From: Branchiostoma floridae
Taxonomy: Eukaryota; Chordata; Leptocardii; Amphioxiformes; Branchiostomatidae
Length of the DNA: 64,000 nt
Direction: 5' to 3'
NCBI RefSeq assembly: GCF_000003815.2
Contig: NC_049980.1
Span: 31,325,470 to 31,389,469 of the forward strand
Each line of letters starts with the position of its first letter. Position 1 is the stretch's first letter. The notes under the pieces are model-generated. The model was given only the letters and a program-made list of their open reading frames with translations. It ran no database searches and was not told the origin of the DNA. Of the stretch, positions 7,301-63,469 are shown piece after piece. A program made the translations under genes and the position numbers.

Positions 7301-10300
7301 ATTGCAAATCCAATGTAGATCTTTCATTTTTAAATCTTGATAAAACCATTGCCATTCTTTTCTGCTGGTACATTGATGGCCAAGGGGGTAGAGTGGTTGG
7401 CTTGCATAAGGAAGGTTTATACTAGACTTTTAAAAAAAGGCACAGACTTGTTTTGCTGCTTGGCACTGAGCACATACTGAGAAAGAGTATGGGAGTTGAA
7501 CACACATCGCTATCTGTGGACTAGTCCCCCGCTGTACAATGTATTGGTCTGTGTGGCACAAGGGCCATATAAAAGAAGATGGGTACTGCCCCTTGTATAT
7601 ACACCACTGCCAGTGGACTAGTACCCTGCTGTAGTAGCCTGTGTGGTTCAAGTTCTATGGAAAATAGACATAGCCACTGCCCCTATAGATACATGTTCAC
7701 TGCAAGTGGACTAGTCCCCTGCTGTAGTGGTTTGTGTAGCCCAAGGCCTATAGAAAAGAAGATGGTCGCCATCCTTGTGTGCCAAAATTTAGAGGGAGGA
7801 TTAATATTTTAAACTAATAAGTTAACTTGATCATTCCCTGCTAGGTTCCTTTAAGAAGCGTTACCCCGTCTCCACCCTGAACGATGCAGAACAGCAGAGC
7901 AGCAGTTCACCCGACCTGCCCAGCAGGGTGGGAGGGGCCAGTGGTGACAGACAGCAGCTGTCACACAGCAAGTCTGACAGCGTCAGTCCCACCGAACAGG
8001 AACACAGGTCGTTCAAGGTACGTCTACATCTTGTTTTCTTGTCTTACAATTGTAAAAGCTATCGGGGAGTGGCAGCTAGGAATATTTCTAACTCGAAAGG
8101 AGCCTGGCAGCGGGTACAGACAGCAGTTGTCACACAGCAAGTCTGACAGCGTCAGTCCCACCGAACAGGAACACAGGTCGTTCAAGGTGCGTGTGCATCC
8201 TAGGTATTCCTGTCTTACGTGTACGTTGCAAAAGCTATTGGAGAGTGGCAGATGGGAATATTTCTAACTTGAATAAGTCCACCGGTAACACTGAAAACAA
8301 GTGTCACACTGCAAGTCTGACAGTATCAGTCCCACCGAGCAGGAACACAGGTCGTTCAAGGTGCGTGTGGATTTTGGAAGATCGGAGTAGACTCTACATG
8401 TTTAGCCTCTACCAGACTTTGTTGATTGAACAGTTGATCTGACTTTACGATATATATGAGGTTCTCTCTGCTAGTGTACTCGTAAGAATGCACATGACAC
8501 ATGATGTCTTAGTGATCCCTCCCACTACAATGCTGTATACCTTGAGTATTTCTTTGCTGCCATTGCTCTCTTGTTTCTCTATGTTATTAACCTTTAAGAA
8601 ATGCAAGCTTTGTATGCACCACGTTTTGGTCTCCATTTTGCCAAGGTGATTGTAAATCCTTCAGCTAATGTGTTAAATGACAGTAGATAATCAAATACAT
8701 GTAGATAGACATTATAAAATAATTTCATGAAAGAAAAATTGTTTGAAGTTCCAGGGTTTGTATTTGTACGAGGGCTCTGATTGGTCCCGTCCGGGTAGTA
8801 GCTTGCTCCTATGTTTGCTTCTTCTAACCAAGAAACTTGAAATGGTTAACTGATTGCTGTATCCCAGCATCTGATTGCTAGAATCCATTCCTTAATCCAC
8901 TCATTAACTAACGTCACCACCAAAAGATTTGAATATACAGTTCTCCAAATGTGTAGCAGAAACAAACATAGGAGCAAACTTCTACCTGCATGGTGCCCAG
9001 GCTATGTAGATCCTGGTTGTGAAAGTTGCTATCCAGTCATTTTCCAATCCAATGAAATTATTCATTATACTTTCTCAATGATCGCACTACTATACTGCCT
9101 TTTTCATGACTTCATGTGCTATATAGTCTTTTCATGGTTATATCCTGCTGGCTGTGTGATGATATTTTCCTGCACATGTGTTTGACTGAAGACTGTTGCT
9201 CGGTGGCCTTTCCTCCGTAGCTGCCAACCTGATGAAATTATTCACTATATTTAGACAATGATTGCACTATTCTATGATACTGCCTTTTTCATGGCTTCAT
9301 GTAACGCTAGTTCACCTTTATCCGTAGTATATCCATTGTTTTTAAAAACGGTATGTAGGCATATCAAGTCGACAGGTGGTAGTTTTGAACTGCAATATCC
9401 TGAATTATCCTAAAATACGTCTGTCAATGTGCTATCCCCAAATACACTGTTTTCAAAAGTTTTGAAGCAACGGATATAGGTTACCCACCGGATGAAGGTG
9501 AACTAGGGTTAGTCATTTCACGATGATCTTGCTACCTGTGTGATGATATTTTCCTGCACCTGTGATTGATGTTGCTCGGTGGCCTTTCCTCCACAGCTGT
9601 CGCTGGCTCTCCTCCAGGCTTTCTCTCTCATCCCCCTGCGCCCCATCCTCAGTCTCCCTCCCAAGGTAGAGTAGCCACGCCCGGACACACCCACCTTTCC
9701 ACACCCTGCTCTTAGGGCCGGTTTACACCAGGCAAAAAAATGACTTGTCCTAACAATGTCTTAAGCCCCCTTTACAAATCAAGAGTTTAGCTCGGCCGAG
9801 TTGTCAGCGNNNNNNNNNNNNNNNNNNNNNNNNNNNNNNNNNNNNNNNNNNNNNNNNNNNNNNNNNNNNNNNNNNNNNNNNNNNNNNNNNNNNNNNNNNN
9901 NNNNNNNNNNNNNNNNNNNNNNNNNNNNNNNNNNNNNNAATGGCAGAGTTTCTTCGTCAGCATCAGGGTCATACCTTCTCGTAATTCAGATCTCGGTGCC
10001 AACTCGGCCGAGCTAAATTCTTGATTTGTAAAGGGGGCTTTATGACGTTCGACGCGCAGAACGTGTCCCAGGACGCTTTTTTTGCTCGTGACAAAAAGGA
10101 AAATGACGTGCTGTGGCGTGTCGCATTGTGGCGCATGGTGGAGGTGCCACACTGCGGCGCGCCCCAGCACGTCATTTCTATTTTTATCTGGACAAAAAAG
10201 CGTCCTAGGACACACGCCACGCGTCGAATGTCATAGGACATTGTTAGGACAAGCCATTTTTTTGCCTCGTGTAAATCGGCCCTTACACTACAACTCTTGC

Positions 10301-13300
10301 AAGGTGGTCCCCAGGGCATTTGAGCATAAAAAAGTCTCCAAGGCTGTCACCAGTAAAGATGATGCTGTGATTTGGGCCCCTATGCTGTCTTTCAATCAGC
10401 GTAGGGGCCTAGGAAATATTGTCTGCTTAGACTAAGTTAGAGGGTCTCAAAATTTTCATTGCTTGCTGTGTGGCTTAGCCTGGATGCCAGACTGTTTCCA
10501 GGGTCTGCACAGACTAGCTCCTATGAGCTAGACCCTGAACAAGGTCTAACTCAGGGACCCTGTTGTAAAATTTCTTTGGGGAAATATTGGCCCTAGAGCC
10601 AAGGAGTCGTGCAAGCCCTGGAAACAGTCTGGCATTCAAGCTATTTGTGGTTATGAGTATGACTACACCAAGTTGACCCTCTGTACCTGACCCTTACGCT
10701 CTGAAAATACCCTGGGAACCACCCTGGAACATGGGAAAATGATGTTGCTGACTGTGACACAACCTAGAGGAAATTTGTCCGGCCAATGTGTGAATAACTC
10801 CCCAGCTAGCTTCCTTCCATAGGGCCTGAAGAGTTTACTCCTCCTTGCTTCATAAAGACAAAAGACCAATCACATCCGAGGAGTGTACATGTAGCTAGTG
10901 AAACTTTGTCCATGTGAATTTCTGCTCTATTGGTTGCCTGGTATCCAGCTGTATTATAGCTCCTGAGTCTCTTCTGTCCTCTTCGCAATTGGATGGAAAT
11001 CGGCGATAATATTGCCCAGATACGCAACAAAACCAATTCGACCATCCTGCAAAATTGTGCAAGCTTCGTGACCTTTGTTCCAAAGAGCACCAGCTAAGAG
11101 CGCATCTCATGCATATTTATTAGCTACTAGCGACTTAGTGATGTAACGGGAAATCGGTTTGAAATCAACCAAGCCAGACGTTTTTGCGAAGAGGACAGAA
11201 GAGACTTGGGAGTTATAATACGGCTGGATACCAGGCTGCTGTATTGGCTCACAAGAACATCATTTTCCTTGTTTCAACCTACCAATCCAATGAAACTATC
11301 AATGGAACTCTTGACATATCCTGCCAATTATTTTAGCACAACTTTTTGCTGTTTTAGCAAATTTCATATTCACTCCATGATGCCCAATTCCAGTAGACGT
11401 ACAATGTCACGTACATGCAGAAAGTTACTTGAAGCCCACTGACACACTGTGCGCATGCTCCCCCTAGTGTGAGAATGTTGTACTGCATGTCTTGCCCAAA
11501 TCTTAAGACTTCTAATGAAATTGTCAAACAGTATTTTCTTTCTTTGTATTGTATTATGTTCGACATTGGATTCATGAAACATTTGTTAGTTTACATCTTG
11601 CACATTCCTGTCTAGAAAGCCTTAGGCCACAGCAAGTAAATTTTATGGATGACATCCTCTGCAGACTGCAAAAATAGTGCGATAGGGCGGAAAAAAAATA
11701 AGATGGGTGAAAAAAACAAGATGGCTACATTTTCAAAAGTAGGCACCATAAAGTTGTGATGAATGTTGTAACAAGAATTAAAGGGACAAAACATGGTATC
11801 AGAGCCAACAAGGCATTCATTCCTGTATTCAAGACATGTACTGGTGTGGTAAAAGTGACACTAGTGTGGTAGACTGGCATCACCAACAAAGTTGGTAACC
11901 ACACTCATGACTTTTACAACTATCCAATAAGTTTCAATTATACAACTACAGCCCTGGATACCTCGCAAGTGTCACTTCTACAAGTACAATTATTATGCGA
12001 CAATACAACATATTTGGTCATTTTGGTACTTTATCGTCATGTTGACCATCCCTGCAGAAGAAAAAGATTCTTGTTTTTTTCTTCTGAAATCAGGCGAAAA
12101 TTAATGCGTGCCCTAATGTCATCCATAAAATTTACTTGCTGTGGCCTTACATGTAACCATCAATACAGGGGCTAGGGGTTTTCCCTTTTTCCATAACCAA
12201 AGCAGTTGTTGGCCGGGTCTAATGTTACATGATGATCATAACGTAGAAGGGAGAGAAAAAATGTTTCAATGGACGTCACCGTTGTCGTTATATCTCTGCG
12301 CCATGATTTGATGAATGTTGTGAGAAGGTGTTGGTACTGATGTCCCGTTGTGGTGTGGCAGGTCGGACTGGACCGGCGCGGCAGCAGCGGGAGTCGGAAG
12401 GTGCACATGGAAGAGGACGGGCAACAGACGTCAAGTGAACACAGCTCTCAAGGTAGGGGGTTGTTTGTTTTATTTGTTTGTTTGTTTCAACAACCATTCT
12501 CTAGCTAGAGTATGTGGGTCGTGCACTGAGGTTATAATTACACTCTATGCATCCACTAAGTTCATGACATTTGTACCAATTATGCTGTAAGTAGAATACA
12601 CAACTTCTAATTAAACTTGATGTTAAATTTGAGCAGTCTCAATAGGATATTATGTTGATAAACTCAGAATCTATTGAACTATGTCAAATTTGTCTTCACC
12701 ACTTTTGCATATGAATTCACAGTTATGAAAAGTTGTGGATGCTACCGGAAACATTTGACCATTTCCAAAATCATATTCAGTAGCTTGAGTAACTGCTATT
12801 TTGCAAGTCTGGCTACGAATTAAGTGGAATTAGAACGTTTGACTGCACTCTTTGAGAAAAGGCACGCGGTCCCCTTGTACAGATGTTAGCAGTTACCACT
12901 CCCCACCATGTGTGGATTAAGTCAATCTGTACTTCAACCTGAAAGGATCTCACGCTTTTAAGCTTCTGTGTTGATTATAGAAGTCGTGCTTATATTTATG
13001 TATGTTGTAAGGTGAAAAAAGTATTAAAAAAAGTCCCCAGACTGCAGGCATCCTGAAGTCACAATTTAACAATTGCAGAGGAAGACAATGAACAAGTTTC
13101 CATATTTTCATGATCGGTAAAGGGGGGTCTGCATGGGGGGATCCCTGACAATGCCATATGCTAGATTCAAAATGACCATTGCAGTCAGAAAAGAAACTAT
13201 GGCAGCTATGGAAGCTTGCGATGAACAGGACAGTCAGTGAAGAAATTTTAAGAAAGACTGACTGCAGTTGCAGGGTGTCTAGACCACTGCAGCAACAGAG

Positions 13301-25300: not shown

Positions 25301-28300
25301 AAAACAAACAAACAAACAAAATGTATATGTTCATAAGCTCAAAATGACAGATTTGGCAACGAAAAGTGAAACCAAACAATGAGTGGGATGGAAAAAATTG
25401 AAAGCTTGTGACAGCCCTGGTCTTCAGATTGGTTTCATCCTGACTACGATATCGCATGGGTGTCGTATTTGTTGACATTCCATTCACGTGAAGAGAAAAA
25501 CATTTGCCTAGACGACAACATTCATACCAGTCCTATAGTCCCAGGGAGTCCTTGTTTATGTTGGTGTCAATGTTTTTGCCTGCGGCAGTGGAGGAATAGT
25601 AGTATATTAAAGCAGCATCGGTAGCACTGTGCACCAAATGTAACTGTCCGTTATGTCACCTCGCATTTTCTGTAAGTCCCCAGCTGTAAATTTTCTCCCA
25701 CTGATTCCTTAGAAGCCAGTGTACATGTTGTTGATTTTTGTTGTCATTGTAAGTTGAAGAATTCAGTTTCATGTCACGAACTTCAGATTTTTTGGATGGA
25801 CATCAAGCAAATTTTTGCCTTGGAAGGGAAGGACGGGTGCTGGAGACAACCCTGATACAAGGACCGGAAGCTAAATTGAAAAAGTCTTGATAAAAAAAAC
25901 TTAAAGCATCCAGAGCACTTTGCACCGATGTAACAATTCAGTTTCATGTCACGAACTTCAGATTTTTTGGATGGACATCAAGAAAATTTTTGTCTCGGAA
26001 GGGAAGGACGGGTGCTGGAGACAACCCTGATATTACAAGGACTTGAAAAAGTCTTGTAAAAAGTCTTAGATCATCGGGAGCACTTTGCACTGATGTAACA
26101 GTGATGTCGCCTCATATTTTCTGTAGGGACAAGGTTCAGGCCAAACCGGTGCAATGGCCTAGTGGTTAGAGTGTTCGCCTTGCATTCTGTACTCAGGTCG
26201 TGAGTTCGATCCCCGGCCGAGTCATACCAAAGACTTTAAAAATGGTACATGCTGCTTTCTCTGCTTAGCACTCAGCACTAATGAGGAAGAGTATGGAAGT
26301 TAAACACACATCACTACCAGCGGACCAGCCCCCTGCTGTAGTGACTTGCACATGTGTGGCCCAAGGGCTACAGAAATGGAGATGGGCGCCACGCCACCCC
26401 TACGCATCTGTTACTGATGTACGGGCAACTTTAACTTTAACAAGGTTCAGCCTTCAGAAGCTAACTTGAGAAAGTCTTTTAAACAAGTTTTAAAGCTTTG
26501 TGAGCACTTTGCACTGATGTAACCGTGATGTCGCGTTGTGTTTCTGTAGGTACAAGGTTCAGTTGATGGAACCTAACTTGAGAAAGTCTTTATAAAAAAA
26601 GACTTAAAGCATCTGGTCCAGGAGTACTCTGCACTGATGTAACGGTTAAGTCACGTTGTGTTTTCTGTAGGTACAAGGTTCAGTTGCTGGAAGCCAAATT
26701 GAGAAAGTTGATGGAAGCTAACTTGAGAAAATCTTTTATAAAAAGTCTCAAAGCATGTGGTCCAGGAGTACAGTACTTTGCAGTGATGTAACCGTGATGT
26801 CGCCTTGTGTTTCCTGTAGGTACAAGGTTCAGCCGTTGGAAGCTAACTTGAGAAAGTCTTTTAATAAAAGTCTTACAGCTTCGAGAGCACTTTGCACTGA
26901 TATAACCATGAAGTCACCTTGTGTTTTTTGTAGGTATACAACAAGTTTCAGCTGCTGGAAACTACTAGTAACTTTAGAAAGTCTTTTCAAAAAAGCACTT
27001 TGCACTGATGTAACCGTGATATCACTCTCGTCGTGTTTTCTGTAGGTACAAGGTTCAGTTGCTGGAAGCCAAATTGAGAAAGTCTTTTATAAAATGTCTT
27101 AAAGCACGTGGACCAGGAGTACAGTACTTTGCACTGATGTAACCGTGATGTCGCTTTGTGTTTTCTGTAGGTACAAGGTTCAGTTGCTGGAAGGAACTTA
27201 AGAAAGTCTTTCAAAAGTCTTAAAGCATTGGGAGGAAACGTGATATCACCTTGTGTTTTTTGTAGGTACAAGGTTCAGTTGCTGGAAGCGAACGAGCGGA
27301 TATCCAAGTACCAGCAGGTCCAGGAGAAGGAGAGTAAACGGAGCGTGGAGAAACAACTGGAGGAACTCAGACAACTCCAGGTAAGGAGTGCTCATTCTCA
27401 CCTTTTTAGCAATGGCACATTCTGTGGTGTATTTAAACAATTCATCGAGCCCCTGCCAGACATCCATCCTACTATTTTGCAGAGGAAAATGTTGAGGAAA
27501 ACTTTAACCTACATTTTGTTTATTATGGATTAGAACTATTTGTTTTGTCAGATACCTGTAAGAATTAACTTGATTCAGGCTTGTAGATTGTTTAAGATAA
27601 TTTTTACAACCAGTCTTCAAGCTTTGATTTTGAATAAGAAATGACTGATTGATTGCATTGGCAATAGTGTCATTACATCTGTCATCCTTACTATGAATGC
27701 AATCTTGTATCATTGTATCCTGAACTGTTTAATGAAATTAGTGTACAGTTCTTAAGAAAAACTGTAATCAAACCTATAAGCAAAAGTATAGTTCTGTTAC
27801 GGAGAATGTCTCATTCAGTGATTTTCCCCCCTGCAGGACCAGTTGAGTCGAGAGCGGCACCAGTGGGAGAAGCAGAAGAAGAGGAAGGAGCGGGAACTGC
27901 AGAAGGAGGTGGAGTCCCTGGAGGAGGAGCGGTCCGAGTTCCAGCGCGAGAGAGAACACTTCCGTGTGAACGCGCACCACCACCACCACTCCACCAGAGA
28001 CATGGGGAACAGTGGTTCGCAGGGACAGTACCGGTCGGTGTCCAGCGCCAGCTACGGCGAGGAGGATATCTGGATTGTAAGGACTACCGGCGAGGGGAGC
28101 GACAACGACGGATCTTCTTCCAGTGCCTTCTACCCGAGCCCGGTTTCCGACAGCGGACTGTCAAACGAGACGCCGCCGGGCACGCTCGAGAGGCACAGCT
28201 CGACGGCCTCCCTCTCGCGCAAGACGAGCTCCAAACACATCCACGAAGTGCCTCCGCATCTCATGAGCGCCACCAACCAGGAAGCAATACGGCAGCGGCC

Positions 28301-28769: not shown

Positions 28770-30985
28770 TTGAACAAGTCATGATTGAGTGTAAGTAACC
28801 TCAGCTTCTCCTGTTGAATCAGTTAGTTCTAACTTTTCATATCCTCTTTCCACTAGGACGGCGCTCTCGCCGCGCTGTCTGCGACCTAAAAGTTGTCAGA
28901 TCGCTCAACGAATTGTGTAGAAAAGAAACAAATCTTTTTACACTTTGTGTGTTTTGTTGTCTTCTTAGTCACTTTTATTACGTTTTGTATGAAGGTTACA
29001 CATATCCTATTAAGGTCGCAGTGGGAGCGCAGCGCAATCGCTGTCTAGTGGAAAGGTGACTAGTAATTTCAAGTTTGTCTCCAGCATTGAAGTTTTTGTC
29101 TTTGGGAGAAGAGATGCTGTCCCAGTCACTAACCTTGAAGTGGCCTTTGAGCCTCGTTATGTAGTGAAATTGACTAAGAGAAAAAACGAAATCACTTCCA
29201 CGTGTTTTGGGGCTCTGACATGACCATTCAGTTTCTGTCCTCCTTTGAAATTCCGGAATAAGCAAAGTGGACTTATTACGTTTATTACGTTTTAGATCAT
29301 TACATTGTCATTTAATGGTGAACTGTACATGTAAAGCTTTATCATTTATTAAATGTAAAGAAAAAAGTTGTAGTGCTTTGGTATGTTTCAATCATCTTTA
29401 TCAGTCATTTATCTCTTTGGTACAGCTTTTCAGTATTACATTTGGCAGAACTCACGGTGCACTACTTACATACATTTTATTGAACCCATGCCAACAATTA
29501 TGTCATTGTTTCTCTACAGGATCTGCAGCCAGACAAGTGTTGCATCCACCTGCAATATGCATCATACCTGCTAGAGGGCTCTGCTGTCCTTGGAGATATG
29601 CAAAGATTGTAGTATGGCCAAAGCAAAATGAAAAATGGCAAAAGCTTCTTAGTGTTACTCCAATATTGTATCAAAATAATCACTTAGAGATGTGATATTC
29701 TTTAGAGATGTAAATAATTTCGAAGTTATATAGTCTAAAAGTTATACTGATTGTATTTTACTATATTCATCATTCTTCTTGTTGATATGATTTTTTCGTT
29801 GTTGGATTTGATATGTAAATCATTGCAAGTCCCTGCCTTATTGTTTGTATTTCTGTCGTGTAAGACATGTAAGCCCAGTAGAGCTACTTATTATAAGTCA
29901 AAACCAAGTGTAATGGCAACTGACTGCAGAGGCTAGTTTTTATGCTTAATAAGTTATCATTTAATGGGATTTAGTCTGTCCAAAAAACTTCAGCGTATGT
30001 GGTTCTACTTCCGTACCATATTATATCCCAGTGGAACCATATTGGGTATATCCTTGGATGAGCAAGGATTGCCACATGCTTAGCTTGTGTATTTCAACTT
30101 CTATGTGCCCCATATTACTACCGACAAATTTGATACCAAGTATACATGTAGGTCCATAGATACCAAAGTATTATGTACACTTCCGTTTAATTTAATACTT
30201 CACCGCAAAGACGAGGAGCGATTTTAGTTTTCAAGTTCGTAGCGTAAAATAATGATGCTTAAAGCTGCTGAAAAGTGTGTTAGTTTTGAACTTGTACTAG
30301 TTGATGCTGCCAAATGTACAATGTACATTCGCCCCAAAACAACTATAATACTGAGAGGTGTGCAGCTTGTGATGCTTCCAACATAGGTCGAGGTTTACTT
30401 TTAGCTGGTTGCCATTTCTCAGTAAATTACATTGGAGAAATTCAGCATATTACAGACAAATATAAAACTTAGATGTGCTCAGACCTCTTGTTGTTTCTTC
30501 TGATGACATGATATGTTAGAAATATACTCTGGGAGTAAGTAACAAGAGTCAGACTCGGGTTCAAAGGATAAAGGTCATACGTTGTATTGACCTGTGATCG
30601 TATACATGTACGTGAAGGCACATGTATCCTCTGACATCATTATTTACAGTGATGTTTCCGCAAATATTTGTGTAAACATTTACGATATACTGCTAGTCCC
30701 TAGGACAGGAGACAAACAATAAGTGCTACTTAGTCTCGATTTGTAGCTATGATGAAATCTTGTACCCGAATGTCTAGAGCAATGCTGAGGGATTACTACA
30801 CCACCAGTGCCAATAGCACACTGGATGGCGGCAACGTAAACTCGGACCATTCCATTGTGAATATAGTAAAAAAACCTAGGTGCTCCCGGTCTGTATGATA
30901 CTGTAATTTACAAGGTAATTATTTGCTTGTGTGCTGACTGAAGGAAAATCGCATAGAGGACGACAACTTGGATTGATTAAATTCC
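28770..30985. other. Shared 3' flank between convergent RhoGEF and MCM3AP genes
   Basis: No coding sequence is supported here. The RhoGEF 3' UTR must begin at 28770; an ATTAAA lies near 29347 but the cleavage site cannot be fixed. A short inverted-repeat element at about 28848-29057 sits just after the stop codon. From about 30800 onward the sequence is duplicated at 58230, marking the limit of the MCM3AP segmental duplication. Confidence 0.6.
28848..29057. mobile_element. Foldback element just after the RhoGEF stop codon
   Basis: TTTCCACTAGGACGGCGCTC at the left, and TTTCCACTAGACAGCGATTG on the opposite strand at the right. CGCGCTGTCTGCGACC pairs with the complement of GGTCGCAGTGGGAGCG. A related end occurs near 13825. 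Confidence 0.65.
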
Positions 30986-30988
30986 ACC

Positions 30989-30994
30989 TTTATT
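30989..30994 (-). promoter_or_regulatory. Candidate polyadenylation signal for MCM3AP copy A
   Basis: AATAAA on the minus strand, 0.83 kb beyond the stop. The same signal in the same context (AGATGAAATAAAGGTGG) is conserved in copy B at 58413-58418. The conserved homology between the two copies continues only about 200 bp beyond it. No transcript evidence is available here. Confidence 0.4.
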
Positions 30995-31824
30995 TCATCT
31001 TCCTGTGTGTTTGTGCTTTGTACTTATTTTTTAGGTACCCCAATCTAATCTCTTGGTTCATGAACAGGCCTGCTTCATTTTTCTTGATTTAAAAAAAATG
31101 TCCATGTATTGGAAACATTAAATGGTTGAGGAAAATCCTAGATACATGTATTAAAATTTTGCCATTTTTAAATGCACTTACTGTTTAATTTTAGTCTCCA
31201 CTGTCGTTTAGTTCCTCTGCTTAGTCATATTCTGTATAGACTGACAGTACTAGAACCTGTAATGTTCAAAACTAAAGAAACATTAAACAAGCTTAGCATG
31301 CAATTTTTGAGGCTCCAGTTGCAGCATTTGGATCCAGCACAGGATTCCAGTTCTGTACTTTTTCTCTAGTATTTCCTGTAGAAATCCAAGAAATTAAATT
31401 GTTGTGCCCTTTTTCCTTACAAAGCAGACAATATTTCATCTAATGTACAGTCATGTAGTTTTCTATGAACAAGAGAAATCAATTAACTTTTCTTCCATAA
31501 TCTTCTAAAATGAAAATTCATCTAATAGTATGATAATCAGAATGGACTCTTCCACTGTTTGCAAGTACTGATGAACTAAATCATTGCCTTAGACAATGGT
31601 CACAATTCTCACAAACCAGTACTCAGCCACTTTTTGCAAAAAATTAGTATCTAATACAGATTGTTTTGTACACAAATACGTTTGTGACTAATTTTTTTCC
31701 TTAAATCTGTAGTGTGTCTTGCATTTAATACTTTTCCACCAACTGCCCGACGGGGCCCCAGTTTACAAATGTGACTCTAGCATTACTGGTGGAACATTTC
31801 ATGGCTGTGGCTGTGATAACTTTT

Positions 31825-32025
31825 TCATGAGTACTGGAAGTGTTTGGCTTGGAAGTCCCCCATGTCCAACAGGGAGTTCAGTCTGAGCTCCGACAAGCGG
31901 AAGTCTCTCTTCCCGGCAGCGATTCTCCATCTCAACTCCTCCAGATTCTCCTCCAGGGACAGTCTTCGGGGCTGGGCAGTCAGATCCAGGCGGTCTGGAC
32001 CGGGGGGGCTCGGCGGTGGGTCTCT
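31825..32025 (-). CDS. MCM3AP: MCM3AP copy A terminal exon
   Basis: 201 nt, phase 0, reads RDPPPSPPGPDRLDLTAQPR ... LEENLEELRWRIAAGKRDFR ... LNSLLDMGDFQAKHFQYS, stop TGA at 31827-31825. The short helix with LxELRWRI and LNSLLDM corresponds to the last helix of vertebrate GANP. The copy B counterpart (59762-59962) has the same length and an identical last 39 residues. Confidence 0.9.
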   Translation of the reverse strand, partial: RDPPPSPPGPDRLDLTAQPRRLSLEENLEELRWRIAAGKRDFRLSELRLNSLLDMGDFQAKHFQYS

Positions 32026-35000
32026 CTGGAAGGAGAAAGATCATGGGGGTACATTTTTGAGTCAATGTTTTAGATTAGTATTAGAAGTCCTCTTACTATC
32101 ACCGGGCAGGCTGCATACTTTTTTTACAACTTTTGTTTTTGTAATTGCCTGTACTTGTATAATACGTATCAAACTTAACTGTCTGGAAGGAGATGTTTAA
32201 AAGAACACCTGCAGATACATGTATACCAAATGTGCAAAAGTTATGTTTGACAGGTTGTTCAGTGTAATATAACCAGCTGCTGCAGTGCTGTTGTGTTATG
32301 CCTGGAGGCTGTTAAACCAGCTATAAAATGTATATAGATACAGATACACACAGAAATCCTCTCAATGTCACCATTTCTCAATATTAATGTCACTATCTTT
32401 ATGCCTGTACTTAACAGGTTAATATAGGCTATTCATCATCGTTAAAAACACAATCTTTATGGGGCAACACCCACCATGTCCTCTGGTGAACTGAAAGGAG
32501 AGACCCCTGGTGGCTGGTGCTGGTACTGCCCATCCTCCACATAAACCTGCAGCTGGTCTTCATAGCTGGGGAGAATAACAGAGAAACATTGGAAGGGGAG
32601 CTTGACAACAATTACCAGTACGGATGTAAAACTAAACCTGAAGGCAGCTAATCTTCAACACAAAGAGCATGTCAACTGTACATTGTACATCTGACACCTG
32701 GATGCCAGACTGTCTACACAGGCTGGTGCATCTGCTTTTCTCAGAATGTTTTAAACTTGGGGGGCTGTTGTAAAATTTCCTTGGGTGCATGTTGGCACTG
32801 GAGCCCAGAAGCTGGCCTGTGTAGGCCCTGGAAACAGACATCTATAGGCTATACTTCTGATTGTATCTCCTGTCGTTTACAGATCTGCAGTTATAGTACA
32901 TTGTTGGTTAGTAACAGGCATAGTATGCATATAATGTACCTTTGTATCAGACATCAATGATGCTTTTAGTTCTATCACCTTTTTGTCTGCACCCTCTCCT
33001 GAGCAATTTTCTTCCTGAGTTCCTCTGCCTTCCTGATGAGTGCAGATACTGCAGGGGACAACTTGTCCTCCAGCTTCAGGTCTCCATCTAATAGGGAGAA
33101 CCACTCAGTGAAATATAAAAGTCACCTCGAACAAGTTAGCGCCGATACATTCAACTACAACGTACATTCAATCCTTGAGCAAGATTGGATAAGTTTTCTA
33201 AAATTCACTTGTCCAAACCAACTTGTCCGGACATTGACCAATGCTTGATGCTATGACTGTGAAAGGTGACAAGTATATCAAAATTTCTCTCAATATGGAA
33301 AAATCTTACTTGCCCGATCCGACAAATGGGGTAGGAGATGCACTTGCCCAGTCAGCACTTTCATTTGTCTTGGACAATTGGGCTAACAGGCTTGTCCGAC
33401 CCTGCCTTGAGAAACAAAATAATAACATCTACATGGGTATGAATAATTCCATTGTTTAAACCGACATATATTTGTAGGCCACTGACCTGTGGTGTCTGCT
33501 GTACTAGTATCTGTGGTCTCCACTCTGGACAGCTCCTGATGTTTCTTCCTCACACTCTGCTGTGTTGCAACAACCAAACTATACAGAAATACAAAATAAC
33601 AGTTATTCCAACACACACCATTGAATCATAAACAGGGCATACATTTCTATGAATTGTATTGGCATTGACACATTCACACATAATATATTATATATATTAA
33701 TGTAGTCTATAGTATGATTCAGTCTTTGATCCACTGTCAATCATTTAGGAGCAAGAATCTGATTTACATTTTGGAGTCAAGTTGGGAAAAAAGCTTCAAA
33801 CATGAAAAGTTTTGAAAGAAGGCATTTTTTTACAGAACAGTAATGTTAAGGTTAAGTTCTCTCAGTAGCTTTCTAACAAAACATCAAGGTTGTTGCGCCG
33901 CAAATGCACACACATGTGCAACAACACAATTGTAGCGCACCGCAGGACTAGGGTTAAGGTTAAGTTCTCTCAGTATCTTTCCAACAAAACATCAAGGTTT
34001 TTGAACGTTATATATGAGATATGCAGCAGCATACAGCCCAGCTTACCTGTGTGGCTGCTCCAGTACTTCAGCTGAAGTGTTCCCCACTGCAGCCCTCCAC
34101 TCCGGGGGCTGGGTGAAGCCTGACAGCTCCTCGGGGAGGTAGTGTACAGTCAGCACACTGCCGTCTGGGGAGCAACAATGGAAGGGCCATTCTGTTAATA
34201 GTTTGATTGTTTTCGAAAACAGGGCATTAAGGGATATGAAGTTGATGGGGGATGGTTTCATATTGAAACCACTAGCGTCAACATGATATCCTTGAAAAAA
34301 CAACAACATACAGACATAGGTAATACTGTAATTCCTGATTTTTTCAATGTACTGTTATGTTCACGGTTTTCACTGTGACGACTGTAACGTGAACTTATCA
34401 TTACCGATAACAAATAATTCACAGACTTTTTTTATGTGCCCTTGCCACGACAGTGAGCATTTAGTTCCGAGAACAAGTTAAATTTTCTCAGACCGTGAAA
34501 GTTTGGTACCGAGAAGACAAAGTGAATTACAGTACCCTGCGGATAAAAATTAACTACATAATTTTCTAACGACATTTCTGTGACTGCCTGATCTTTCTCT
34601 GGACAAAGCTGATTAAGTTTATATGCCCCGTCATAACGGTTCACTCGTTGGATTAAAGTGAAGTGAGTGAATAGATAAAAAAATCTACTCCAGTCACAAA
34701 CCGTGATGAGGGAGATATAAACTCAGTCACACATGGCAACTTATATTACTTGAATGTACAGTAACTGTTATTAAAACAAGAAAGCTGAATGCTAAGAGAT
34801 CAGGCTACCCTACCTTCCCCCACCCAGTCCAGTCTCTGCACCATGTGGCTCACACACATCTCCACCAGGCGAGTCCAGGGGACGTGAGCAGCCGTGGGCT
34901 CACAGTTAGGGACATCATAGTCCAGGTAACAGGTGTCCTCAAACTCTGTCTGTACTCTGTTTAACAGCCACCGCAGTCTGGGAAGAGAGAGAGAAAAGGT

Positions 35001-38000
35001 TACTTCACATCTTTGTCTTATACAGTATATGTAGAGTTAACAACAGTTAGGGACATCATAGTCCAGGTAACAGGTGTCCTCAAACTCGGTCTGTACTCTG
35101 TCTAATAGCCATCGCAGTCTGGGAAGAGAGAGAGAGAAGACATCTTTGTCTTATATATATAAAACTATATGTATACAAACTTTTAAGGTAGAGTTAACAA
35201 CAGTTCAGTGCACATTATACAATGTAGTCCAGGTAACACGTGTCCTCAAACTCTGTCTGTACTCTGTCTAATAGCCACCGTAGCCTAGGAAGAACAAAAG
35301 GGTTACTTTTTTTGTCTCACAAAAGTAGAGCAGTTGGGCACATCATACAGTCATGTAGCCAGGTCTGTATTACTGACATGTGTCCTCAAACTCAAAGCTG
35401 TGTTCTAATTACAACCACTAACTGCAGTCTGAGGAGAGACAAGGGTTTCCTTTACATCTTTGTCTCACAAAAAGAGGTCTAGTTGACAACAGCTGTGCAC
35501 ATCATACATGTACAACGTAGTCCAGATAACGTGTCCTCAAACTACGTCTGTATCAGGGCTGTCCCTAGCTTTAGATTTTATTCCGTCCTCCACCGATGTT
35601 TGAAAGCCTATGTTTGTTGGTTTTTATTGTTAAAACTGTCATTTTAAGCTGATGAAAATGCAATGAAGTTGCTCACCTTGTCAGAAGCACAGTTTGCTCT
35701 TTGGAGTCAGCAGGCAGAGACAAGACGTAATCTGCACAGTACTGGCACACTGATGACCAATCCTCTGTCAACACAGAAACACAAGATACTCATACATACA
35801 ATGGTGGGGGCAATAGGGGCATCAACATTTTTTTCTTCTGAATGTTTGCTTTTTATGCATGTACAATATTTTCCGTGTAATAAGTTCTTGTATATACCGG
35901 GTATGTCAGAGATTGCAATCAACCAGAATGGCAGTTTTTGCTGATAGAGATTCTGATTGGAATCTGTTAATTTAAATACATTCTTACAAAACTTTGATTC
36001 AGGTCAGTTTAGATCAATATCTTAAAAATTAAGATTCCTCCACAGTCCCATTCTGATCTGTACTTTTATTCTTTTATTTATTCAGTTTTACCACATTTGT
36101 GGAAGGATGTAAGATGTCAACCCAGAAACCAGATGGGATCTACACCTGTCCAGTAAAATGGGCAACTCTGCTGGATCGCCAGATTCTATCCTTTCATATA
36201 CATGCAACATACACATCCAAAATCACCACTTATGAATCTTTTAATCTGTTGGCTACAGAGGCGAAAATTTCTGGCTACAAGCACCTTCTCCATCTATGTA
36301 GGGTACAGGGGGCAGACGCAGGGCCAGGATTCGCTCCTGTAGCAACATCAGCTGGGTCTCACTGTTCCACTCCAGGGAGAGAAGGTCTGGAGAGAGACAT
36401 TTTCTTAGGATTATGTACATTGTATATTCAAAGGAGACATGTGGTGCAAGTCATGATCACATCTCACTTTCATTCCACTGTAATCAAGAATGAGTCACAA
36501 TAATATTAGTTACATGTATATGCTGTGCATGGTATACTTCATATACAGGAAATAACAGATGATAGATACGCACTCGTTCGTATCATGCATGGATGAACTG
36601 AACTGAGCTTTCAAGAAATATGCATTTCTGATGACTACTGTGTACTGCAGAATTGAGACCCCAGAAATCTCCTTTCCACCTATGCCACAAAGTCCCCACA
36701 AAAATAATAGAATCACAGTGCCTTTTCTGTGGCCAAACATCTAAAAGCACAGCTAAAGGCTGTTTACTGGCTATGCAAAACAAACAACTGTCCTCCAAGA
36801 TTACCAGACTGAATAAAACTTACCAGTTCTGTGTCCAGTCATGACAAACTCAGCGACAGGCCAGGACAAGGCTTGGAGGTTGTTGGAGCTGGCTACTCTG
36901 GCTAGGTGCTCCACTAGACTGTTGTACAGGCATACAATAGGACCAGGGGTCTGGAACAAAAAACATGGTTATCAGGTATTTATCTGTTAAGTGTTAAACT
37001 TAATATATAAAAAAAATTCCCCAAAATCTATCCTAAACAATACAAGATTAAAAATATATATGTGTTTAATAGGGGTTCAGTATGGAACATTCAGGACCAG
37101 TTCCAGGTAGTATCTTATCATTAAAAAAAATGTACCTTTGGGGCTAGACACGAGTGCAAATTTCAGTACATCTATTTCTAAGACACTGTGACATCATTTC
37201 CAGACAAGCATGTTACCTATTAGCATCATGGGCTACTACCTACTACCTACCCTTTCTTAATATTGTTCACTTCCAGAGGCCAGAGAACATTCTTTTAACA
37301 TCACACTGGAACATCATAGAGTCACCCCTGCCATCATAACTACCCCCCTTGAAAGGAAACTCTGTCTAGGTGACCCTTACATGTGAATGCACTGCACCAT
37401 GACCTATTGCTGTAGACATCACTGTAGATACCACTCTAGACACTTGCATGCCCCTACTCTTTTTCGAAAGGTGTGGTGGGGTTTGGCTCTCCCCAAACAC
37501 GGGACCTCCATTTAATGTCCTATCAGAGGGACAGACGAAGCTAGGTACTCATTTTCACGTGAGTGAAGTGACAAAAGTCACCTTTCCCTTGAAGGGCACA
37601 AGATGAAAAACCAAACACGCTGCCGATTATGCTGTGTGATCTCTAATAAATAAATTCACCTGTTGTGGAAGTCCTGCTTTCCTCCTCTGTGCTGCGTCCT
37701 GGTACACGACAGAGGAGAACTCTCCTGCCAGGCTGTTCTCTATGTAATCTCTCAGGGTCTCGGTCTCTAGGCACGGGGGGAGGGGGGCACGATCTCCCAA
37801 CCAACTCAGTCCCTCACATAGCTGTAACATACAGGGGGAAAACACATTAAGCATAATTATGAAGAAAATAACTCAAAACATTTTAAAGACTAGTGTGACA
37901 TTCTGAATGCCTTTAGCCAGACTGCAGAAAACAAGATTTCGAAAAGACATAAAAAACAATGCATTTGCTTATTTGAAGGTGAAGTAAAAAGTACCCAGTA

Positions 38001-41000
38001 CATATAGCAAAATCACTATGTGACTAAAAGTGCATACATTTCACTCACTCACTCACGGCACATTTATGGAAAACACTTAATGACAAAATTCTTCTTTGTA
38101 CACCGACTGTATTATTATCATAGTTGTCGTTTTGGTGACTGACTGGTTCTTATCCACACTCCAGTAGGTATTGCTGCTACAGTATGTAGAATGAGATCCC
38201 AAATATGATGGGTACACCTGGTTGTTTACTACAAATGAACAAAGAACTTTGTTACGTCAGTGATTTTAAAACTTGATGAAACCCTTCACAGATGTATAGT
38301 TACCTTCCTGCAAGTGTTGTCATCTTCCACATCGCTGCTGATGTCCACGACTCGACAGTCTGACACCAGCTCCCCTTCTGTCAGCCCTTGGATGTCTAGG
38401 TTCTCCTTGACGTCCTCCCCAGGGTCTGTGCCCCACCCCTGGGGCATCTCCCCAGGGTCTGTTCCCCACCCCAGGGGCAGGACCAGCAGGGGCACGCTGG
38501 GGTGGAGCGGCTTGGCCTGCAGAAGTCGCACCAGTCGCAGTTGGCTCTCTAACCAGTACGTCTGCCAGATACAACAAACAGGTAAATTTTTCTAGTGCAA
38601 TTTCCATTAAGAAATGTTTTGTCTCCTGTTAGTATGACATGAAATGATAGTTAATACACATCTTTACATCTGTATAGTTATAGTTAGACAGCCAACTGTA
38701 GCGTTCCAGTAGTCTCTTTTTAGAACAAAATTATCTCTTTTCATTGTTACATGATGTTTCTACCATGTACTTGAAATTAGCCTCCGGACATAAACTTGTA
38801 AATAAACTTTCTGTGACCCACCTCGAGACTGTCCTGGTCCACTGGTGGAGGAGGCAGAGCCAGTATAACAGCTGATGTACCCAGTAACATGTGTTCTCTC
38901 TCTACTTCATCTGTGTCCTCCTGTTGTAACAACCCCTGCACTGCCTGTAGTCAGGGACAAAGGAGCATTAGTTAGGACATCTTACTGCACTATGTACACT
39001 CAGAGCCAGGATAACAGCTGATGTGCCCAGTAACATGTGTTCTCTCTCTACTTCATCTGTGTCCTCCTGTTCTAACAACCCCTGCACTGTTTGTAGTCAG
39101 GGAAACAGGAGCATTTATTAGTCTTACAAAGTTTAGAATGTACACTCAGAACCAGGATGACAGCTGATGTACCCAGTAACATGTGTTCTCTCTCCACTTC
39201 ATCTGTGTCCTCCTGTTCTAACAACCCCTCCACTGCCTGTAGTCAGGGACAAAGGAGCATTTATTAGTGAGGACATCTTACAAAGATCAGTAATGTATAC
39301 TCAGAGCCAGGATAACAGCTGATGTGCCCAGTAACAATTGTGCTCACTCTCCACTTCATCTGTGTCCTCCTCTTCGAACAACCGGCCCTGCACTGCCTGT
39401 AGTCAGGGACACGGGAGCATTTATTAGAACATCTTACAAAGCTATGTACACTCAGAGCCAGTATAACAGCTGATGTACCCAGTAACATGTGTTCACTCTC
39501 CACCTCTTCTGTGTCATCCTGTTCTAACAACCCCTGCACTGCCTGCAGTCAGGGACAAAGGAGCGTTAGAACATCTTACAAAGCTATGTACACTCAGAGC
39601 CAGTATAACAGCTGATGTACCCAGTAACATGACTGTTCACTCTCCACTTCATCTGTGTCCTCCTGTTCTAACAACCCCTGCACTGCCTGTAGTCAGGGAC
39701 AAAGGAGCATTAGGAATCTTACAAAGCCATAAGTACATGCAAATGCCAAGGCTGAGACTTCCCAGGGTGGCACTTACAAGAAAAAGGAAAAGTTGGGGAC
39801 AAGCTATGACTTGGAAAAGAACAGTTTATTGGAAAATTGTTGGGATGGGCTGCAGTCGGGAGGGGGCTCAGTGGACAGCATAAAAAGAACAACAAGATTG
39901 GCAATAAAAATATTATTGCCATGACGACGATTGAGGGGAACAACAATACAGCTCAAATCAGAAATAGACTGGAACTTCCCTGTCGCACTATCCCTGGCAC
40001 AATATACGAGGTCTGCCAGTAACCTAAACCTACAGCTGAACACTACAGTGTGTAGTGGAGAATAAAAAATAAGGAAGAACCAACTGTTTTCAGCACTTCC
40101 GCCCTTGAATGACTTTCTTGCACCTAACTCACATGGCTGTCCTACTTCGTAACATTCCAGTCCTTGGATAGTATAATAAGGCCTTGAACAATTATATTTG
40201 GCTCTGAATATGATAACCATTTGGATGCCATCATTCAAGATCATGGCCTCTATATGAAGTATTTCCTGTCTGCCTGTGGCGTATGGCTTGAACAAGCTCT
40301 AGAAAAGAAAATGTATCCTTCATAACATAACATAACATAACATAACATAACAACCAAGACAACGTGATCCATTGTACAGAGTTTCCCTGTCTACCACTTA
40401 AGTTTCAAAGGACAAATTCCTCCAGGGACCCAGTGTGACCTACATTCCACCATTGCATACCAGAGATACATCTGGAACAGATTGGGGGGGGGGGTGCATA
40501 CCCAGCATACTGCATTCCTGTGGAAAAATTCCTGTGCAATTCCTAGAATTTTTGCAGACTGAATGCAATATATACCACTTGACGACTCCCCTGAGGCGTC
40601 GTCAAAAAACAGACTCTGAGGAAGTCAATGGTGGTCCGTCTCAGTGCAAGCATGGTGATAAAGATGATGATGATACTTTTTGTTACAGTAGTACACTTAG
40701 AAATGATCAAAGTTAAAATACAATGTAAGGAAAGTGCCAATGAAATGAAATTTCCTCCATCATTCATGTAAAAAATTTGTTATTTCTGAAAACAATTCCA
40801 ATAGTATGTAACCTTCAAATCAATTATTAACCCAGGCCTGTACTCTTCGGTGGGACAAATTAGCAATGGGAGGTGACATTAGGAGGGAATTCTTCCTGTG
40901 ATGTCACGACCCATTGCTGATAGAAATGACGAAAAAGTTTCCACTTGATGGAATGGAATGACTGAAACTTTGTCAGTCCCAAAAACAACTAACTGTGCCC

Positions 41001-57818: not shown

Positions 57819-57929
57819 CTCAATACAAAATGTACATATAGCAAAGATAGACAAAAATTAATGGATATAATCACATGTAAATCTAGCACACCTTTACCAA
57901 AGACAAACACAATGTCATATACTAAGTCT

Positions 57930-58228
57930 TTCAATCTACTTATGTCATGTCCAGACTACATATCTTCGCATTTAGGTCAGTACAATATGTAATGCCCTAA
58001 ACAAGAGAGAATCTATTGAACAGTAACAGACCGACCTGTTTAACTTGCATATTACACTATGTCAATACGCCATTTATGTTCACATTCCTGTACTATACAT
58101 GTATGTAGTTATAGACCTTAGACGAGTGTCATTGTATTAATTGACTTATCAATGTTGCCATACAATTGTAACCATGTACATATGTCGTGCAGTAATAAAG
58201 TTCATTCATTCATTCATTCATCCTTCAC
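57930..58228 (+). mobile_element. Probable LINE/SINE 3' tail with (ATTC)n at the duplication border
   Basis: Non-coding stretch ending in GTAATAAAGTTCATTCATTC with four or more ATTC units, like CR1-type 3' tails. It separates the first exon of MCM3AP copy A (57675-57818) from the 3' flank of copy B. A similar but shorter tail (TAAATAAATAAATAAA) is at about 55861-55876. Confidence 0.45.
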
Positions 58229-58229
58229 A

Positions 58230-59761
58230 ACCAGTGCCAATAGCACACTGGTTGGCAACAATGTAAACTCGGACCATTCCATTGTGGATATAGTACAAAA
58301 AACTAGGTGCTCCCGGTCTGTATGATACTGTAATTTAGAAGGTTAATTATTTGCCTGTGTGCTGAAGGAAAATCGCATAGAGGACGACAACTTGGATCGA
58401 TTAAATTCCACCTTTATTTCATCTTTCTGTGTGTTTCACTGTTTATGCTTTGTGTTTGCTTTTTGGGCCACCCCAATCTAATCTCCTGGTTCTTAGATAG
58501 GCCTGCTTCAGTTTTCCTGATTAAAAAAAAACTCCACGTTTTGGTTCAACCAATAGTTAAAGAAAGTCTTAGATACACGTATTAAAATTTTGCCATTTTA
58601 CAATGCACTTAATTTTAGTGTCCATTATCATTTAGTTCCTTTGCGTAGTCATAATCTGTATAGACTGACAGTACCAGTAGTAGTAATGTTCAAAACTAAA
58701 GAAACGTCAAACAAGCCAACTTCGAGGCTCTTGTAACATTTGGATCCACAGGATTCCTGTTCTGTACTTTTTTTTCTAGACTATAAGTAATATTTTCTGT
58801 ACAAATCCAAGAAATTAAATTGCTGTGCCCTTTTTCTTCACAAAGCAGACAAATATTTCATATAATGTACAGTCATGTAGTTTTCTATGAACAATAGAAA
58901 TCACTGAATTTTTCTTGTATGATCATCTAAATGGAAATTCATTAGAATGGACTCTTCCATTGTTTGCACAATGTCATACAGAATGAACTACAGCTTTACC
59001 TTAGGCAAGGGTCACATTTCCAAACCAGTGCCCAGCAAGAGTTTGTGGGAACGAAAAATAAAAGTCTAACACAGAAATATACTCAAGATATGCTCATGAC
59101 GAATTTTTTTCTTTAATCTTTGCTTTGCTGTCATACTTTTTGTTCCTGTAAACTGCCCAACCAGGCCCCAGTTTGGCAATGTGACTCTAGCATTACAGTG
59201 AACATTTCATGGCTGTGGCTCAACCCTTTATAAAACTCTGGAGTAAAATCCTAATCCCAGTGATAACTATTTCATGAGTACTGAAAGTGTTTGGCTTGGA
59301 AGTCCCCCATATCCAACAGGGAGTTCAGCAAAATCCTATACGCAGTGATTACTTTTTCATGAGTACTGGAAATGTTTGGCTTGGAAGTCCCCCATGTCCA
59401 ACAGGGAGTTCAGTCTGAGCTCCGACAAGCGGAAGTCCCTCTTCCCGGCAGCGATTCTCCATCTCAGCTCCTCCAAATAAAGGGTCACATTTCCAAACCA
59501 ATGCCCAGCCAGAGTTTGTGGGAATGAAACATAAAAGTGTCTAAAACACAAATGCTTGTGACCCCCTTTTTTTTTTCTCTTTAATCTTAAGTGTGTTTTC
59601 TTGTCTTTCATATCATACCGGGTACTTTTTATTCCCACCAACTACCTGACCGGACCCCAGTTTACAAATGTGACTCTAGCATTACTTGGAACATTTAATG
59701 GCTGTGGCTGAACCTTTTATAAAACTCTGGTATAAAATCCTAATCCCAGTGATAACTTTTT
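58230..59761 (-). other. 3' flank of MCM3AP copy B, homologous to 30800-31824
   Basis: Begins with CCAGTGCCAATAGCACACTG, also found at about 30803, and tracks the copy A flank through the polyadenylation signal to the stop codon. It is longer than the copy A flank because the end of the terminal exon and its flank are repeated inside it (59279-59335 and 59357-59480). No open gene. Confidence 0.8.
59279..59480 (-). repeat. Two partial copies of the MCM3AP copy B terminal exon
   Basis: 59279-59333 carries the last 18 codons and 59357-59475 the last 39 codons of the exon at 59762-59962 (GGCTTGGAAGTCCCCCATRT on plus). Each is followed by repeated 3' flank (ATGTGACTCTAGCATTAC). They lie downstream of the real stop, so they would be in the 3' UTR. 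Confidence 0.85.
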
Positions 59762-62700
59762 TCATGAGTACTGAAAGTGTTTGGCTTGGAAGTCCCCCAT
59801 ATCCAACAGGGAGTTGAGTCTGAGCTCCGACAAGCGGAAGTCCCTCTTCCCGGCAGCGATTCTCCATCGCAGCTCCTCCAGATTCTCCTCCAGGGACAGT
59901 CTTCTCGGCTGGGCGGTCAGATCCAGGAGGTCCGGGCCGGGGGGGCTCGGTAGTCGTTCTCTCTGGAAGAAGAAAGGTATTAGGGGGTACATTTTAGAAT
60001 CAATGTCTTAGATTAGAAGTCCTCTCAATACCACCCTGCATACTTTATTACAACTTTTGTATCTGTATGCCTGTACTTATATAATCCGTATCAAACTTAA
60101 CTGTCTGGAAGAAGAAAGGTATTAGGGGGTACATTTTAGAATCTATGTTTTAGATTAGTTAGAAGACATGCCTTCAAGTACCATAGTTACCAACCTAGGA
60201 TTGATGGTTTCAGATAATTCATATTTTCTTTCTAACTATCGTAGAGTAGAACTTGTTATCACCAAGCACAGCAGGGTCATTTTTGGTCAGTAGTTTTAAA
60301 GAACACTTGCAGATACATGTAGATGTGCAAAAGTTATGTTTGACTGGTCGTTCAGTGTAATATAACCAGCTACTGCCATGCCTGCAAAGCTGTTTAACCA
60401 GCTATATAGATACAGATGTCACCATTTCTCAATCTCATAATACTTAGACAGTTGATATAGGCTATCATCATCATTAAAACACAATCTTTATGGGGTAACA
60501 CACACCGTGTCCTCTGGTGAACTGAAAGGAGAGACCCCTGGTGGCTGATGCTGGTACTGCCCATCCTCAACATAAACTTGCAGCTGGTCTTCATAGCTGG
60601 GGAGACGAACAGAATAAACATTGGAAGGGGAGCTTGACAACAATTACCAGAACAGATGCAAAACTGAACCTGAATCAGGTATAATCTTCAACACAAAGAA
60701 CATGACTTTTGTACATTGTACATCTGACACTTGCATGGATGCTAGACTGTCTCCAGGGCATACACAGGCCAGTGCATCTGCTTTTCTCAGAATGTTTAAA
60801 AAACTTGGGGGGCTGTTGTAAAATTTCCTTGGGGGATGTTGGCACAAGAGCCCTGAAGCTAGCCTGTGTAGGCCATGGAAACAGTCAGGCTTTGGGTCTA
60901 ACTCAAGGGGGGCTGTGGTAATAGGTCCTTGGGGATACTGTAAATGCATTTAAGTTTGCGGGGATTTAATTTCGCGGTAGCGGGAAAAGGAAATTTTTGC
61001 GGTGGTTTTAATTTCGCGGTAGCACCACGCACTATAGTCTCTTACTGCCATGGAAAAATGTTTCCGGTGGTTTTAAGTTGGCGGTGAAGCGGCCACCGCA
61101 AAAAACGCGAACATTAACCATTTCTGCACTTACAGTATGTTGGCCATTGAGCCGAGGAGCTGGCCTGTGTAGGCCCTGGAAACAGTCTGGTATCCAGACT
61201 ATACATGTACCTCTGATGGTATCTCCTGTCGTTTACAGATCAGTTACAGTACATTGTGAGTGGTAACAGGCATAGTATATAATGTACATTTGTATCAGAC
61301 ATCAATGCTTTAAGTGCTGAACACAAGATTTACAGATCACCTTTTTGTCTGGACCCTCTCCTGAGCAATTTTCTTCCTGAGTTCCTCTGCCTTCCTGATG
61401 AGTGCTGACACTGCAGGGGACAGCTTGTCCTCCAGTTTCAGGTCTCCATCTAACACAAAGACGTGAAGAGTCGCTATGTGAAAAAGTTCCAAAGAGATCG
61501 CATTCATGTACACATGTAAGTAGACTTAACCATTGGGTTTAGTGAGAAAATGTGCACCTTTTACATTGTAAGACCAATAAAGGGTATTTCTAAACATCTT
61601 TTGCTTTCTACTTCAAGCCTACATATTTATCATTATCATTCCGAAAATCATCTCCAATGAAACAATACTAACATGATGTTTTATAACTGCACTTAACCAC
61701 TATCAGCAAGAGGCCCTCTCATGACTTCAGTGCCTGACTGCAGTAATTGGGGCAAGAAGGGCACACATTCGACCCATCGCTAAGATGTTGTCAATTTCCT
61801 AACTAAACCAGTCACCTCAAATACTCTATATATCACATATGACCAACCTAAACATACGTTTTTTGGACCTAAGTATTTTCAAGATTGGAGTAATAAAGGA
61901 ACAGGATCATAGTGGGATGTGACTGACATGTAGGCCACTGACCTGTTGTGTCTGCTGTACTAGTATCTATGGTCTCCACTCTGGACAGCTCCTGGTGCTT
62001 CTTCCTCACACTCTGCTGTGTTGCTACAACCAAACTATATAGGCAACAAAACAACACTTATGCCAACACACACCATTGAAACATAAACTGAACATACATA
62101 ATAAAATAAAGCACCAGGTCTATTGATGAATCGCATCACATTTGACATTGAATCTTATACATTGAACATAACATTTACATATCATAAAGCACATGTATAG
62201 ATTGTGTAGTCTTTGATCCACTGCAAAGTATCTATACGAGTAAATATCTCTTTTACACTGCGCAAGTCTGAGAAAAATGCTTAAAATTTTAAAGTTTTTA
62301 AAAGTGCACAGTTTTTTAATCAAAGAACATATGCATTGGTTTAATTCTAGCCTGACAGTTGGAAATCATCTCAAAAAGGTAGTTAGCAAGTGAAACTATT
62401 GAGCCAGTAGTCACAACGGAGGATGATACTCAAGCTAGTATAATTCTCTCAGAAGCTTTCTAAGGAAACATCAAGTCTTTTGAACATTGTACATGAGATA
62501 TGAAGCTGAAGACAGCCCAGTTTACCTGTGTGGCTGTTCCAGTACCTCAGCTGAAGTGTTCCCCACTGCAGCCCTCCACTCCGGGGGCTGGGTGAAGCCT
62601 GACAGCTCCTCGGGCAGGTAGTGTACAGTCAGCACACTGTCGTCTGGGGAAGCAACAATGGAAAAATCATTCGGTTAATAGTTTCATTGTTTTTAAAAAC

Positions 62701-63397: not shown

Positions 63398-63469
63398 CTG
63401 GGGGATAGGAAAGGGGTATTTACTTTACATCATTGTGTAATACAAACTAGAGTTCACAACATACTTGTA

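Follow-up and report, generated by a model that had tools for sequence, protein, structure and literature searches.

Exon-edge tandem arrays in a 64-kb region of the amphioxus genome are probably mirages with neutral decoy splice sites

Tandem arrays that copy the edge of an exon were analyzed in a stretch of 64,000 nucleotides of the Branchiostoma floridae genome (C2:31325470-31389469), referred to here as the window, in whose numbering the array coordinates are given. Such structures, termed mirages, have been reported at 5' and 3' exon boundaries of amphioxus globin genes (PMC3087553), and the Adh3, retinol dehydrogenase, presenilin, and troponin C genes are cited as mirage cases in PMC3087553 and PMC3902484. 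We consider it likely that the present arrays are lancelet mirages as well, that is, tandem duplications across exon edges that leave neutral decoys, with the genuine site being picked by exon definition. This reading is based on the anatomy of the arrays, the near-neutral decay of the decoys, copy-number differences among paralogues, recurrence in dynein and ABC genes, and a lengthening of the introns concerned. A preliminary description of the window had proposed five arrays, and Tandem Repeats Finder (TRF), direct-repeat searches, and alignments showed all five to be real and located nearly where it had placed them.

Two of these arrays are on the plus strand. Array 1 (7939..8373) consists of three copies (7939-8030, 8108-8199, and 8282-8373) of an exon end with its donor and intron. 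The genuine exon was modeled at 7845..8017, in a gene that appears to be ARHGEF-like according to our reading of its translations, and the first copy in the array takes in its last ~80 nt. This first copy in the row is the genuine one, and decoy donors are found near 8187 and 8361. In transcript orientation, the genuine donor reads …CGTTCAAG/GTACGT, and the two decoys read /GTGCGT (the slash marks the exon-intron junction). The plus-strand gene contains a PH domain at 3606-3848 (PH_16, E 1.4e-13). Array 2 (26079..27303) comprises eight copies of intron, acceptor, and exon start, with the junction …TTTTTTGTAG/GTACAAGGTTCAG…. Its seven decoy acceptors (near 26127, 26550, 26671, 26820, 26934, 27046, and 27171) are located upstream of the genuine exon, which the exon model places at 27266..27380 (YKVQLLEANERISKYQ...).

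The remaining arrays of the window are on the minus strand, where a gene matches MCM3AP_GANP at 37.6-37.9 kb (E 2.5e-7). Array 3 (34902..35552), delimited by repeat and alignment searches, holds four copies of an acceptor edge, including decoy acceptors near 35118 and 35284 and a partial copy at 35512-35552; its 97-nt copies are 95% and 71% alike. The corresponding genuine GANP/MCM3AP-like exon (34814..34977; LRWLLNRVQTEFED...) was derived from the exon model and from alignment to two tandem paralogues, and its Pfam match is weak (E 0.0069), falling short of the curated cut-off. Array 4 (38855..39711) contains six copies of an acceptor edge in units of ~146 bp, and its five decoys are near 39090, 39236, 39396, 39542, and 39686, with the AG intact in four. 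The genuine GANP-like exon (38822..38944; AVQGLLQQEDTDEVE...) has its donor, with a score of 8.7, at 123 nt from the acceptor. Array 5 (59242..59865) comprises three copies of a terminal exon end with stop codon and 3' flank, namely, the genuine copy at 59758-59865 and the copies at 59353-59460 and 59270-59328. The terminal coding exon itself (59762..59962), including the stop codon, is part of a second GANP-like copy and aligns to 31813-32193 of the first copy. A sixth edge array in the second GANP-like copy (63337..64000), overlooked in the preliminary description, has two copies and overruns the window end by 24 bases; it consists of the start of a genuine exon (63234-63397) and one decoy at 63944-64020.

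In each of the five proposed arrays, as had been claimed, a genuine exon has one of its edges repeated within the neighboring intron or flank, and the tally of three acceptors, one donor, and one terminal exon end was correct for them. The copied splice edges of the window amount to four acceptors and one donor, array 5 representing a terminal exon end instead. TRF gave 83-90% matching in four of the five regions, and decoys match genuine edges with E-values down to 3e-33, which excludes chance. In all 17 splice-edge arrays examined, the decoys are located on the intron side and the real exon stands at one end of the array. The latter position had been named as a point to check, and it is forced by geometry, since the end copy alone is continuous with the remainder of the exon. 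Local direct repeats at most 1.5 kb apart cover 10.6% of the window and form 21 arrays, of which six touch an exon edge or a transcript end. The other 15, likewise missing from the preliminary description, touch no exon edge; since repeats are thus not confined to exons, any claim that arrays favor edges calls for a placement test.

The arrays are gained and lost between paralogues. The C-terminal part of the GANP-like gene occurs in three tandem copies in and beyond the window (aligned pieces, 79-96% alike), and the unit counts of these copies differ: 4/2/4 for the exon of array 3, 6/1/5 for that of array 4, and 1/3/2 for the terminal exon. Two of these exons (the array 4 exon and the terminal exon) have a paralogue in which only one unit is present. 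Trees of units mostly lacked resolution and gave no array age relative to the gene duplications. Decoys farther from the genuine copy were less similar to it in seven of nine arrays, but only one case, with four decoys, was nominally significant, and the windows compared overran the outermost units. The same region contains repeated plus-strand coding stretches (AGYWVMRSLNERIHAG..., AGEVEEGPLK...), at 47-55 kb of the window and in the flank up to ~131 kb. These stretches sit between minus-strand exons of the GANP-like copies, in which they seem to be nested and along with which they seem to have been duplicated. Predicted exons suggest that a fuller GANP-like gene begins near 143.5 kb. An array spanning 1.7 kb in the right flank (L007; 98985-100720 in window numbering), with units of ~147 bp, touches weakly predicted exons only.

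To cover other genes, 37 loci (18 dynein, 13 myosin, and 6 ABC) with 213 exons and 419 splice edges were sampled. Searching with the dynein AAA_6 profile yielded 110 matches, three of which hit one profile stretch 142-146 bp apart, and the dynein loci, of 5 kb each, were picked from this match list after its one array had been seen. The 20 best myosin matches were reduced to 15 by merging overlaps and to 13 by dropping L032 and L034, in which no exons were found; the six ABC loci were hand-picked from 82 matches for closely spaced exons. Exons are our own models. Those of dyneins were defined by similarity among paralogues, and the exon finder retrieved 83 of 116 of them plus 22 extra at a threshold of 16; for the region containing the window, a threshold of 22 was used together with hand-curated exons. 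Decoy exons were taken off the edge lists (two in L028 and one in L056), as were eight weak or decoy exons in the flank.

Duplicated edges numbered 13 of 419 (seven acceptors and six donors) and occurred in eight loci. Their distribution was uneven, with 12 of 238 edges in dyneins, 0 of 123 in myosins, and 1 of 58 in ABC genes; in the window, 5 of 77 modeled edges lie in splice-edge arrays, much as in dyneins. Among the dyneins, L015 contains 17 copies of a 75-78 bp acceptor unit, L021 contains 10 copies of a 70 bp unit, and the donor array L026:3299-4223 has 20 units of ~45 bp after the exon, most with CAG/GTAAGA. The common unit of L026 is open in frame (VRHMNHPAWKLKLVQ, translated by eye), and use of later donors would add a variable number of 15-residue repeats. 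The donor array at L028:213-687 has two decoys and may be an older or once-used exon copy. Local repeat arrays of any placement were seen in 1 of the 15 merged myosin loci (L032-L051), which are nearly free of them, versus 10 of the 18 dynein loci. A different kind of duplication was noticed on the minus strand of an ABC transporter region (C13:3143301-3160164), where 11 matches to roughly one ABC_membrane stretch occur within 17 kb. Its 5.5-kb locus L058 (C13:3154900-3160400) harbors six tandem whole-exon copies, three of them modeled at 311 bp, and an open frame between usable splice sites in five of the six makes this a candidate set of mutually exclusive exons.

The average similarity of decoys to the genuine edge is 76-98%, and there are up to 19 decoys per array. 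Distinct coding changes between decoy and genuine copies, collected from 15 of the 23 splice-edge arrays, comprised 101 nonsynonymous (N), 88 synonymous (S), and 6 stop changes, compared with 129, 56, and 9 expected if both sides were neutral. The observed N/S of 1.15 equals the prediction for a neutral decoy branch and a purified genuine branch (our arithmetic, assuming equal branches). As a group, the decoys therefore look unselected, and their coding changes fit neutral decay. The exon part of the genuine-decoy divergence was about half of the intron part (median of eight usable arrays of nine). A strong form of coding selection on the decoys was considered, as exon parts were less diverged in 15/15 arrays, but the windows compared overran the outermost units. 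With the outermost decoys dropped, the decoy-decoy exon/intron ratio was below 1 in seven of eight arrays, with a median of ~0.8, and this form was rejected.

The splice dinucleotides AG and GT are kept in 101 of the 103 decoys that align across the edge (23 arrays), and many decoy sites score equal to the genuine site. Among 58 non-identical decoys, 56 retained the dinucleotide, whereas neighboring dinucleotides predicted 46.5 (P = 2e-4); when one decoy per array was used, the figures were 21.5 of 22 observed and 16.7 expected (median P = 0.002). The difference between decoys was lowest at the dinucleotide (0.017, versus 0.044 on the exon side and 0.145 on the intron side). A functional excess in retention was nonetheless dropped as an explanation because these tests ignore that the genuine site was fixed when copied; when this is allowed for, the excess looks small.

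That the decoys are functional, serving as alternative exons, as a source of variable protein lengths, or in splicing control, is improbable in our judgment. This idea draws on the dinucleotide retention and on the open frame through the common unit of the L026 array, but the former is probably explained largely by constraint on the genuine site, and the coding N/S with its six changes to stop fits neutral decay. In array 4, moreover, only two of five decoys have a donor scoring at least 5 within 200 nt (5.2 at 49 nt and 5.2 at 195 nt), against 8.7 at 123 nt for the genuine acceptor, and a single copy suffices in one paralogue. Nor do the window decoys resemble mutually exclusive or cassette exons: they are partial exons with neutral-like coding change (15 arrays, donors being considered for array 4 only). 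An assembly artefact, with haplotypes collapsed or expanded, deserves very little credence. One globin mirage is said to have been misassembled in the genome draft (PMC3087553), and 1287 N occur in runs in 164 kb of the region, but the imperfect identity of the decoys, their number per array, and the different counts in the three paralogues argue against it, as does the description of such structures in several genes of lancelets, for one of which re-sequencing is cited.

Whether arrays are commoner at exon edges than within introns, on which the preliminary description had made its theme depend, was answered differently by events and by bases. By base coverage, 3.1% of edges were repetitive versus 8.7% of intron bases in the 37 loci, a ratio of 0.36 (95% interval, 0.17-0.60). 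When arrays were collapsed to one unit, the edge/intron ratio was 1.95, and its interval (0.73-4.07) extended across 1. In an event test, in which each array is counted once and founder units are placed at random, 23 of 70 arrays spanned a splice edge versus 11.1 expected (P = 1.8e-4), i.e., about twice as many. Without the window, the figures were 18/49 versus 8.85 (P = 0.001), and in the 37 loci they were 12/27 versus 5.6 (P = 0.004). The window (5/21 versus 2.25; P = 0.06) and the right flank, which lay outside the view of the preliminary description (6/22 versus 3.2; P = 0.08), each missed 0.05 by themselves. Arrays of at least 3.5 copies were most enriched (9/17 versus 2.95; P = 6e-4), and those at least 93% alike showed no significant enrichment (4/14 versus 2.3). 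Two other tests were discarded: a circular-shift test (14 observed versus 20.6; P = 0.058 for depletion), which counted decoy exons as edges and measured coverage rather than events, and a first flank event test (9/22 versus 3.4; P = 0.002), which took in weak predicted exons and the transcript end.

The enrichment by events would be expected if exon edges were true mutational hot spots, with splice-junction sequence, co-transcriptional structure, or base composition seeding minisatellites. We regard this explanation as possible but on balance unlikely: base coverage points the opposite way, the copy-normalized ratio is compatible with 1, the most similar arrays are not significantly enriched, and the founder junctions compared, in two arrays only, share a 3-nt run in each. 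The conserved genuine copy, furthermore, prolongs detectability. Since one copy per edge array is constrained, the units drift apart about half as fast and remain recognizable for longer, and this alone could give up to about a twofold excess at edges. A shared process that creates decoy splice sites had been rightly suspected and is published for amphioxus, and the exon-boundary-seeded growth proposed along with it is possible rather than established. It is quite doubtful that splice junctions are preferred minisatellite birthplaces beyond chance and detectability, with ~3% of edges bearing rows of decoys and arrays silencing themselves through exon definition; if this were true, the genome would amount to a large collection of natural experiments in splice-site competition.

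Under the mirage reading, a local tandem duplication with one breakpoint in an exon and the other in the adjoining intron would copy the exon edge, and unequal exchange or slippage would later gain and lose units; replication slippage, named in the preliminary description, is a process that we infer. Only one copy, that which has remained continuous with the body of the exon, would be real, the others being decoys that decay neutrally in the intron. The genuine site is always nearest to the opposite splice site across the exon and would be favored by exon definition, which each added decoy would strengthen by lengthening the intron; we propose that decoys are tolerated for these two reasons. 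A classical intron-centric rule predicts that the decoys should win and an exon-centric rule that the genuine site should, and in human data the exon-centric proximity rule holds when introns are long (PMC9225289). Introns with an edge array (n = 13) had a median length of 692 nt, with none below 250 nt, compared with a median of 359 nt for 163 other introns, 40 of which were below 250 nt. After subtraction of the decoys, the array introns measured 385 nt versus 359 nt (P = 0.96), so that they are longer by their decoys only. Array growth may therefore move the junction into the regime that favors the real site.

Several observations weigh against the reading of the arrays as neutral, exon-definition-tolerated mirages. 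With the decoys subtracted, 4 of the 13 introns are shorter than 250 nt, where intron definition would favor the decoys of a young array. Decoy-decoy divergence remains slightly lower in exon than in intron parts (7/8 arrays), and the L028 donor array shows mostly synonymous changes (N 7, S 13), unlike a neutral decoy. Finally, chance placement may not suffice to account for the twofold excess of arrays at edges.

In comparison with known systems, the arrays described here are new members of the published lancelet mirage kind. Units span the exon-intron boundary in arrays 1-4 and in the 63.3-kb array, either boundary can be copied, and AG or GT is kept in many units. Globin mirages likewise consist of tandem units over an exon-intron boundary, on the acceptor or donor side, often with AG/GT kept and one real exon, and their units measure 150-160 bp. 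Another trait of mirages is that their length is unstable, both from allele to allele and within somatic cells, for which copy-number differences among paralogues are our only proxy. Data from reverse transcription-PCR of globins and from Adh3 are said to suggest no interference with splicing, and mirages were proposed as a route to new introns (PMC3087553). In lancelet PGBD5, imperfect 60 and 108 bp tandem repeats cover the 5' and 3' splice sites; this is a single gene, with no neutrality or placement test in its description (PMC3902484). In introns of amphioxus VCBP3, whole exons or parts of them, bearing canonical splice sites, are repeated beside the exons concerned, and the account of this gene does not describe them as tandem edge arrays (PMC2632668). 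In a potato gene, a tandem genomic duplication carrying splice signals made a new intron (PMC4974935), whereas we saw no sign of decoys being recruited. No genome-wide survey of mirages was found among the literature matches listed, most subscription journals being outside the search. The near-identical competing sites, with the real one always exon-proximal, provide a natural test of spliceosome choice between equal sites, and the same arrays bear on the possible origin of introns and exons by duplications of this kind. In the accounts cited, mirages were reported gene by gene; here, they are found in ARHGEF-like, GANP-like, dynein, and ABC genes, with up to 19 decoys and, in array 5, a copied terminal exon end, and a small census, very uneven between families, is combined with quantitative tests of placement and neutrality.

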